Source: a virus. Taken from it: DNA of 23,823 nt. How positions within the stretch are numbered: the first letter of the stretch is position 1; each line of letters starts with the position of its first letter. The translations under genes and the position numbers were made by a program. The stretch covers positions 1 to 23,823 of the IMG/VR virus record IMGVR_UViG_3300042924_002411, one strand, 5' to 3'. Shown in pieces: positions 567 through 2,187 of the stretch. The notes under the pieces are model-generated. The model saw only the letters and a program-made list of their open reading frames with translations. It made no database searches and was not told the origin of the DNA.

Positions 567-622
567 GCGATAACTTGCGCTACAAAGCAATGAGGCACTG
601 CTTGTAGCTGACAGTTATAAGC
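567..622 (-). repeat. attC-like recombination site B (after the 75-codon gene)
   Basis: Read on the minus strand from 622 to 567, this intergenic stretch has the order of an integron attC site: R'' box GCTTATAAC (614-622), 5-nt spacer, L'' box (599-608), 9-nt loop, L' box (579-589), 4-nt spacer, R' box GTTATCGC (567-574). L''/L' pair over 10 bp with one unpaired base in L', like the extrahelical bases that set strand choice in attC sites. R''/R' pair over ATAAC/GTTAT with the required AAC/GTT triplets. It lies 12 nt after the stop of the 75-codon gene. A plain intergenic hairpin or terminator is the alternative, but there is no T-run after it. Confidence 0.6.
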
Positions 623-634
623 AATAAAATAAAA

Positions 635-862
635 TTACCAACCCTCGCTGATTTTAATATTCCTTGCCTCTTCTTTACCAAGTTCTCCAAACTGCTCCAA
701 AACATTAACAGTTATTCTTGAATCAACTTCTGCATCACATAAGAAGTTTCTAAAATAGTTATAAATCAATTCTTCTGTTAATGTCCCAAGTTGATGTTCT
801 GAAACCATATTTCTAAGTTCAGAAACTAAGCAGTTTTCAATTTGTTGTTTTGTTTTAGCCAT
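635..862 (-). CDS. Cassette-borne hypothetical protein, 75 aa
   Basis: ATG at 862 to TAA at 635-637. The product is a soluble, mostly helical, mildly acidic protein (starts MAKTKQQIENCLVSELRNMV, ends KISEGW) with no signal peptide, membrane segment or metal motif. No family is recognised. Its setting is what stands out. It is alone between two attC-like inverted repeats, 29 nt after a GTTATAAGC box (883-891 on the plus strand as its complement) and 12 nt before the exactly complementary GCTTATAAC box (614-622). That is the layout of a one-gene integron cassette of about 317 bp. Cassette genes are often small proteins of unknown function, such as toxin-antitoxin or anti-phage proteins, but nothing here shows which. 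Confidence 0.75.
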   Translation of the reverse strand: MAKTKQQIENCLVSELRNMVSEHQLGTLTEELIYNYFRNFLCDAEVDSRITVNVLEQFGELGKEEARNIKISEGW

Positions 863-882
863 TGCTCAAATTTTATTTTACA

Positions 883-980
883 GCTTATAACAGCGTATAT
901 ACAAGATACGCCTATAAGCATTTGTTTATAATTTAAAGTTCATCATTTGGCGTACCTCGTATATACGCAAACCGTTAGTG
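883..980 (-). repeat. attC-like recombination site A (after the 63-codon gene)
   Basis: Read on the minus strand from 980 to 883: R'' CACTAAC (974-980), 5-nt spacer, a 20-nt L'' box (949-968), a 36-nt central loop (913-948), a 20-nt L' box (893-912), 1-nt spacer, R' GTTATAAGC (883-891). L'' and L' are inverted repeats matching at 18 of 20 positions. The two exceptions become G-T wobble pairs on the minus strand, so a continuous 20-bp stem can form. R''/R' pair only over TAAC/GTTA, as expected when R' belongs to the next cassette. The stop codon of the 63-codon gene (975-977) lies inside R'', a common trait of integron cassettes. The inner part 883-919 can also fold alone. Confidence 0.65.
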
Positions 981-1166
981 GTCATTCACCTTGCATTTTT
1001 TACACTTACGCCTCATATCGTTATCATCATTCGGTTTTACCCAAATCCATTCGTGATTGCACGAACCACTAACACTAAATAAACGCAATAGCTCGCTTAG
1101 TGCTTGTTGAACAGGCATTGTTCCTTGATCAACTTTTATCAATATATTTTCAATTTGTTTTTCCAT
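975..1166 (-). CDS. Small zinc-ribbon-like protein, 63 aa
   Basis: ATG at 1166 to TAA at 975-977. The N-terminal half (about residues 1-32) is a probable amphipathic helix. The C-terminal half carries Cys-Asn-His-Glu-Trp at about 36-40 and Cys-Lys-Lys-Cys at about 55-58, a CxH...CxxC arrangement that could bind one zinc ion. Similar short CxHxW...RxCxxC proteins are common in phages and mobile DNA, usually with unknown roles in nucleic-acid or protein binding. The stop codon sits within the R'' box of the attC-like site at 883-980, so the gene looks like the first of two cassettes. Start choice is clear because no earlier in-frame ATG fits after the upstream gene. The zinc role is inferred from spacing only. 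Confidence 0.75.
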   Translation of the reverse strand: MEKQIENILIKVDQGTMPVQQALSELLRLFSVSGSCNHEWIWVKPNDDNDMRRKCKKCKVNDH

Positions 1167-1195
1167 ATCGCTACTGCGTTTATTATTTTACGTCA

Positions 1196-1498
1196 TCACT
1201 CCAAATATATCACCAACTTATCTTCATTGCTTTCTTGCTCATCAATCTCAAATACTCCAAGTGGTACATTTTGCGATATGGCAATATGAAATAACCGATG
1301 GTCACGAGATGACTTTGGAACGCAGACTCTATATGTCTTACCTTGATAGTCAATCGTTGGTCTTGTAATGGTCAACACACCATTGCGATACGTTGTAAGC
1401 ACCTCAGTTGTATGCTCAAAAAACGGATGTTGACAAGATACACGATAGCTATGCTGATTGGTACTAAAGACTATCTTGATGCAGTTAGGAGGTGTCAT
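1196..1498 (-). CDS. Hypothetical protein, 100 aa
   Basis: ATG at 1498 overlaps the TGA of the exonuclease gene (1495-1497) in an ATGA arrangement, indicating coupled translation. The product is rich in beta-strand-forming residues and has a His/Cys-containing N-terminal half, with a short region (about 49-60) of the kind TIDYQGKTYRVCVP and an acidic Glu/Asp segment near residues 85-94. No family is recognised. A role beside the recombination pair is suggested only by position. The last five residues may be foreign: a GTTGGTG motif at 1211-1217 could be the left edge of the cassette array, so the present ending VIYLE would be cassette-derived. Confidence 0.75.
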   Translation of the reverse strand: MTPPNCIKIVFSTNQHSYRVSCQHPFFEHTTEVLTTYRNGVLTITRPTIDYQGKTYRVCVPKSSRDHRLFHIAISQNVPLGVFEIDEQESNEDKLVIYLE

Positions 1499-2187
1499 AG
1501 TGTGAGTGTATTATAGTATTCTCTTGCCTTGATTATCTTGCCTTGTAACTTCTCCATCAAGATAGCATCATAGTCAAAGTTAAATACCTTGATACGCTTC
1601 TCAATAGGTAGTTCAAGTATGATGTCATTATTACGTTGGATCTGCTGACATTGAGCGATGTAATCTTCGTTTTCATAGTTTCGTCCAAACTTCCACGCAA
1701 GTCTTTCGCATTCGGCAATAACCATCTCCTTCGTGTTTGGTACAAGAGCATATATCAACCGATACTTGTGAACCCCTGTTAACTTCATATAACATTGCGC
1801 CTGTACTTCATACATTGTAGTTGGCTCGGCTTCAAAAAACGTCCTTAATGACCACGAAGTCTTGATGTCTTCCACCGCATCCGTGAGGATAATATCAGGT
1901 GTACCAATGATGAACTCATCTTGTAACTTCTCACGATTCTTTGTTCTGAATGCACCACCTAAGACATCTTGTACAAGTTGCATCGAATCTTGTTCCATTG
2001 CCAAGCCTTTATCCATATATTCGTTATTAACGAACTCACGATATCCATACTCACATTGTAACCACATTGATTCGACTAATGTCTTAGCGGTTGCTGACAA
2101 GTTACCTGCGTCTTTATCTGCTTTTAGTTTCGGTTCAGTTAGTAATGCACCTGCACCACTACATCTGAAAAGTAATTGCTTATCCAT
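1495..2187 (-). CDS. YqaJ-like phage recombination exonuclease (PD-(D/E)XK)
   Basis: The 230-residue product shows the core of a PD-(D/E)XK nuclease of the phage recombination type: a Glu in GLAMEQDS (E65), Asp in GTPDII (D98), then EDIKTS (D107, K109) and a Y-x-x-Q-x-Q-x-Y stretch at about 126-133. These match the E...D...(D/E)xK catalytic set of YqaJ and lambda-exonuclease-like enzymes, which resect linear double-stranded DNA 5'-3' to expose single strands. It overlaps by 8 nt the upstream gene for a Rad52-superfamily annealing protein, the usual partner. The length is normal for the family. The exact family (YqaJ, DUF2800 or RecE-like) cannot be fixed without a profile search. Confidence 0.8.
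   Translation of the reverse strand: MDKQLLFRCSGAGALLTEPKLKADKDAGNLSATAKTLVESMWLQCEYGYREFVNNEYMDKGLAMEQDSMQLVQDVLGGAFRTKNREKLQDEFIIGTPDIILTDAVEDIKTSWSLRTFFEAEPTTMYEVQAQCYMKLTGVHKYRLIYALVPNTKEMVIAECERLAWKFGRNYENEDYIAQCQQIQRNNDIILELPIEKRIKVFNFDYDAILMEKLQGKIIKAREYYNTLTL

Follow-up and report, generated by a model that had tools for sequence, protein, structure and literature searches.

An integron-like two-cassette array in a phage of Bacteroidota, very probably part of a system shared by these bacteria and their phages

Two small adjacent genes of a phage operon very probably form an integron-like array of two cassettes that lacks an integrase of its own (CALIN-like) and belongs to a system of Bacteroidota and their phages, as judged from sequence comparisons. 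The window, i.e., the whole stretch of DNA that was analyzed, is a 23.8-kb virus record with genes for a phage capsid (PF05065) and for an exonuclease-like protein (phrog_5715), and it is from a virus of Bacteroidota bacteria. An earlier note on this DNA had proposed that an integron integrase inserted both genes, each followed by its inverted repeat, into the phage genome. The idea of an integron-like array at a defined site of a phage operon is strongly supported by empty sites, sites with other contents, movement of the same units between unrelated phages, and host arrays linked to tyrosine recombinases. Three points were in need of correction: the border of unit 1, the cassette polarity, and the nature of the linked recombinases, which are not canonical IntI, being devoid of the IntI patch and scoring below the integron-integrase cut-off.

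Layout of the array in the phage window

The locus comprises the following features.

567..622, minus strand: fixed hairpin, putative docking site and presumed equivalent of attI
614..973, minus strand: mobile unit 2 (360 bp), hairpin plus 75-aa gene
635..862, minus strand: ORF of unit 2 (75 aa), assigned to no known family
883..981, minus strand: attC-like site of unit 2, 20-bp stem; model R1, 51.2 bits, E = 3.8e-12; DNA fold, −16.9 kcal/mol, z = −4.18
974..1191, minus strand: mobile unit 1 (218 bp), hairpin plus 63-aa gene
975..1166, minus strand: ORF of unit 1 (63 aa), homologues in other phages, C terminus zinc-ribbon-like (CNHEW...CKKC)
1065..1199, minus strand: attC-like site of unit 1; host-derived model R1, 35.7 bits, E = 6.3e-8
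1196..1498, minus strand: conserved phage gene just upstream of the array; its stop codon (1196 to 1198) adjoins the insertion core
1495..2187, minus strand: conserved exonuclease-like gene (phrog_5715, E = 2e-39), the anchor for finding relatives (67 loci)

On the minus strand, each unit follows a plan of the type [G-hairpin-GTTANNNGC-...-GCNNNTAAC], and the hairpin that travels with a gene lies 5′ of it, not 3′ as the earlier note had it. The two ORFs of 63 and 75 codons proved sound, as did the hairpin reported at 883 to 980 (20 bp, minus strand; z = −4.2, equaled by none of 200 shuffles) and the exact 9-of-9 pairing between R′ of unit 2, GTTATAAGC (883 to 891), and GCTTATAAC (614 to 622), which is part of 23-nt arms that are 91% matching. 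Unit 1 has a hairpin of its own within 1065 to 1199, which had been overlooked, with arms at 1078 to 1092 and 1170 to 1184 and the start of the ORF in the loop. Its R′, GTTAGTGGT (1065 to 1073), is the exact complement of its R″, ACCACTAAC (974 to 982), and the TAA stop of the 63-codon gene does lie inside the box described at 974 to 980. The unit start placed at GTTGGTG (1211 to 1217) falls within the upstream gene (1196 to 1498); the real start is at about 1191. The upstream core of unit 1 is GAC (1192 to 1194) in the window and AAC in relatives. Because of this mutated core, unit 1 was missed by a scan for a hairpin (stem score of at least 34) combined with an exact distal pair, which retrieved a single unit in the window (unit 2) and none in 12 dinucleotide shuffles.

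The inverted repeat at 567 to 622 was also recovered by DNA folding (z = −2.3, 5 of 200 shuffles as good). It had been attributed to the 75-codon unit; it is in fact a fixed site that is retained in empty relatives, and it scores only 6.9 bits (E = 3.9) with model R1, a point against the integron-like reading. At all three sites of the window, the minus (operon) strand folds somewhat better than the plus strand. The 63-aa protein gave a weak match to a Pfam Zn-ribbon (E = 0.036), and an Rfam search of the window gave no match. The absence of an integrase gene from the window, already noticed, extends to 22 related phage records, in none of which was PF00589 matched over the search, leaving the window family without a visible integrase.

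Empty, filled, and shared units

Sixteen relatives cover the locus, with DNA about 90 to 93% identical to that of the window and one identical. Three of them (L006, L010, and L017) are empty: the TGATAAC of the upstream gene joins the fixed hairpin directly. The fixed hairpin is kept in place in 13 of the 16 relatives, including the three empty ones, and is absent from L004 and L016; L003 carries one cassette and a remnant of it. The filled alleles hold, for example, an array of two cassettes that includes a methyltransferase (L005), small genes (L007, L009, and L011), or the 63-aa unit and, after it, a methyltransferase unit (L008). Comparison of empty with filled alleles places the borders of insertion or loss in the TAAC/GTTA core, within which the exact crossover base is below the resolution of sequence. 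The earlier note had held that absent or unrelated repeats in relatives would speak against an array; the opposite was found, since relatives with other genes have their own matching hairpins and boxes. A search of isolated phages with the DNA of the anchor region gave no match.

Farther downstream in the operon of relatives, outside the window, there is a second cassette locus (L006:2973, L009:6502, L010:6860, and L031:7225). A short unit in L012 (5990 to 6115) contains a T-arm-like stretch between matching boxes; ARAGORN found no tRNA in it.

Both units of the window recur elsewhere. The 75-aa unit is present in L320 with a 100% identical protein and unrelated flanks, identity stopping at TAAC on both sides. 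The 63-aa unit, bounded by TAAC|G...ACCACTAAC, recurs in L323, L324, and L325, where identity stops at the TAAC cores; its flanks are unrelated in L324 and L325, while L323 is the same phage as L008. Among the fetched cassettes, near-identical whole units formed 20 pairs across contigs, with both flanks unrelated in 19 and a partly similar right flank in the remaining one (L216/L225). Comparison thus establishes the mobility of the units, their borders, and the structure of their sites, and it lends good support to site-specific recombination at GTTA as the mode of movement.

In L326 and L328 (about 1476 to 1705), the hairpin and the N-terminal coding part of the window's 975 to 1166 are kept and the sequence after GTTA differs, giving chimeric proteins; this pattern suggests recombination inside the ORF. 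On the host side, a 1.44-kb cassette (L155:286-1725, also in L179, L200, L214, L216, and L225) is 94 to 99.9% identical across several Bacteroidota genera, with unrelated flanks except in the pair with a partly similar right flank. Its products are an ArsR-like regulator and a membrane protein containing a heavy-metal-associated domain, which by eye resemble mercury transport.

Related sites and linked recombinases in Bacteroidota

A pattern for the 5′ arm of the site (19 fixed bases) matched in 49 virus contigs, and the full hairpin with an exact distal pair was present in at least 40 of the 50 virus matches. The same pattern matched in at least 119 genome contigs, nearly all from Bacteroidota according to their titles; host contigs carry tandem arrays. 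In all, 252 distinct units have exact 9-nt R′/R″ pairs. Covariance model R1 was built exclusively from 46 bacterial chromosomal sites. It singled out the two mobile sites of the window (E = 4e-12 and 6e-8), the next match having an E value of 1.2. It gave 65 matches in 20 phage loci, whereas none of its matches in 25 control loci, made up of class-1 integrons and XerC/D loci, was convincing (best E = 0.42). A covariance model made from nine class-1 attC sites contained no consensus base pair and was dropped. Sites were found in 61 of 118 evenly drawn Bacteroidota genomes, i.e., about half, a lower bound since scoring was limited to 28 candidates in each genome and used strict filters.

In a canonical integron cassette, attC is located 3′ of the gene. 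Phage cassette genes run against attC polarity because the mobile hairpin precedes each gene. Nearly all genes of viral units lie on the operon strand, which is that of the hairpin: the hairpin was 5′ in 93 viral units, in which the ORF often starts in the loop, and 3′ in 3, versus 26 and 112, respectively, in host units (p = 1e-36, related units being nonindependent and ORFs called automatically). A simple reading of the phage orientation is selection for co-transcription in phage operons. Many of the viral cassettes (L069 to L117) encode DNA methyltransferases with DPPY motifs, and most of the others code for small proteins of unknown function.

Tyrosine recombinases matching TIGR02249 were found in 40 of 40 host genomes, typically in two pieces (model positions 2 to 180 and 238 to 315). 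These matches alone say little, because the 14 control genomes match too. None of the 40 host genomes has a protein above the integron-integrase cut-off of 265 bits; ten array-linked members scored 184 to 223 bits, and scores with NF040815 were near its cut-off. Cassettes were present in 23 of 40 regions fetched around the best recombinase matches, versus none of 20 XerC/D control regions, and in about 14 of the 40 the first R″ is 7 to 130 bp from the recombinase. The 40 regions came from genomes already known to have sites, and the unbiased test is therefore the sample of 118 genomes. There, with presence of the recombinase defined by profile A5 (E below 1e-76), 40 genomes had both recombinase and sites, 4 the recombinase only, 21 sites only, and 53 neither (p = 1e-11). 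Against the reading favored below, 21 of the 74 genomes devoid of the recombinase have sites, owing either to frequent orphan arrays or to a different enzyme. The 18 linked cases all have the recombinase at one and the same array end, with its 3′ end toward the array in 14 and its 5′ end in 4. A stretch ending in GTTA between the recombinase and the first cassette is a candidate attI.

A branch with support of 100/99 separates 45 sequences (from the 40 regions plus L139, L148, L155, L181, and L340), four phage enzymes, and IntI1 from Bacteroidota XerC/D controls, without setting the 45 apart from IntI1 as one clade. In 17 of 17 aligned array-linked or related enzymes, the catalytic R-K-H-R-H-Y residues are kept and the insertion of IntI1 (IntI patch) is absent, residues 201 to 242 of VchIntIA (2A3V) being unmatched. 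The best PDB sequence matches of members are XerA and XerC-like recombinases (4a8e and 5hxy). For the predicted structure of one member (pTM of 0.47, N-terminal part covered only loosely), Foldseek returned integron integrase 2A3V as the closest solved fold, and VIA-align placed XerA, 2A3V, and archaeal Xer within about one Z unit.

Many host recombinases have an N-terminal domain with an RW...W motif before the core (L181:3282-3797, L267, and others), apparently duplicated in some. Its match to the annealing domain HARP is weak (E = 0.0026, below the cut-off); a PDB sequence search with the N-terminal part gave no match. The phage recombinases do not have this domain.

Alternative explanations, proposed pathway, and known systems

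Identical units with TAAC borders in unrelated phages and host genera, with dissimilar flanks, make ordinary homologous mosaicism very unlikely. According to that explanation, accessory genes would be swapped between conserved flanks and the hairpins would be intergenic terminators. Flanks about 90% identical among the compared phages would allow such exchange within the group, and mosaicism might be the cause of site loss in L004 and L016; the 5′ position of the hairpins, and the start codon that many of them contain, are nevertheless not what terminators would show. Peel-and-paste transposition by an HUH (IS200/IS605-like, Y1) transposase recognizing the hairpins and a TAAC target would account for the presence of a hairpin at a single end, for insertions that follow a fixed tetranucleotide, and for the lack of target duplication. 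This possibility is hardly credible, since Y1_Tnp was found in none of 19 phage records with or related to arrays, and the arrays are linked instead to tyrosine recombinases and have a fixed polarity.

In favor of a canonical integron, R boxes, hairpin, tandem cassettes, and borders all fit an ordinary CALIN filled by a standard, patch-bearing IntI from a host integron. Qi et al. 2023 (PMC9892861) list 21 phages; from the same paper, phage CALINs with DNA methyltransferases are known, and IntI1 recombined in the laboratory an attC site of Polaribacter phage P12002L, whose attC sites are described as having divergent directions. The cassettes of P12002L have the same 5′-hairpin geometry as those described here, a likeness that may or may not extend to the site recombined by IntI1 and that also speaks for the integron-like reading. 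We nonetheless consider a canonical integron improbable: no protein in the 40 host genomes exceeds the integron-integrase cut-off, the array-linked enzymes are without the patch, the spacers are of 1 and 5 nt here versus about 5 and 5 in fetched class-1 attC sites, and phage genes are reversed. In its working the system resembles an integron. It was not classed as a canonical integron because the recombinases lack the patch and score below the TIGR02249 cut-off, and because attC does not lie 3′ of the gene in phage cassettes.

For the integron-like array that we favor, each cassette consists of [hairpin - GTTANNNGC - gene - GCNNNTAAC], and excision, presumably through a circular intermediate, would join its ends and complete the hairpin with exactly matching boxes. 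This folded single strand would then be recombined at its GTTA core, by an IntI/XerA-like tyrosine recombinase, with a partner site: that of another cassette, the fixed phage site of 57 bp, or an attI-like site beside a recombinase gene. Since the window phage and its relatives show no recombinase, we infer that it is supplied in trans, by a co-infecting phage or by the chromosome of the host. Once in the phage operon, cassettes would be expressed by read-through and may benefit the phage; methyltransferase cassettes in other phages suggest counter-restriction. More broadly, it appears likely that Bacteroidota harbor an overlooked, phylum-wide integron-like system with patch-less IntI/XerA-like recombinases, of which phages keep their own reverse-oriented cassette pool and some complete phage integrons, exchanging counter-restriction and other small genes.

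With IntI integrons (class 1 and Vibrio type), the system shares tandem cassettes, the AAC...GTT folded-site geometry, R′/R″ complementarity within the cassette, somewhat better folding of one strand, and, in host arrays and four other phages, a recombinase at one end of the array, with a candidate attI. It differs by patch-less recombinases, spacer asymmetry, the 3′ end of the recombinase facing the array in most linked arrays, and reversed phage genes. The recombinases resemble XerA and XerC-like enzymes in their best PDB matches, the lack of a patch, and NF040815 scores; unlike these, they are array-linked, present in several copies in some genomes, and beyond the well-supported branch from the XerC/D controls. 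Phage-borne integrons and CALINs (PMC9892861) likewise include integrase-less attC arrays in virulent phages with DNA methyltransferase cassettes, and the sections of that paper covered here report no patch-less recombinase, Bacteroidota-wide system, or empty and filled states of one site. We found no description of a patch-less integron-like system of Bacteroidota in the open-access PMC literature (preprints being outside the scope).

Integrons are thought to be rare in Bacteroidota, the IntegronFinder 2.0 survey naming a single complete integron in Bacteroidetes proper (PMC9024848), whereas about half of the 118 genomes have cassette sites of one type. Both co-occurrence and linkage tie these sites to a recombinase devoid of the domain by which integron integrases are defined and searched for, the patch being a selection criterion for intI (PMC2426708). 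If the cassettes are moved by the patch-less recombinase, sites of this kind can be recombined without the patch, and a large system may be escaping standard searches.

For laboratory work, empty and filled phage sites provide natural before-and-after pairs, and phage-borne recombinases provide a compact version of the system. Four of 30 other array phages have a recombinase above the family cut-off; the distance from its start to the last R″ is 35, 52, and 56 bp in three phages and 358 bp in the fourth, and all are co-directional with the cassette genes. L335 and L337, from large phage records (310 kb for L337), carry multi-cassette arrays directly followed by the recombinase gene and are apparently complete phage integrons.
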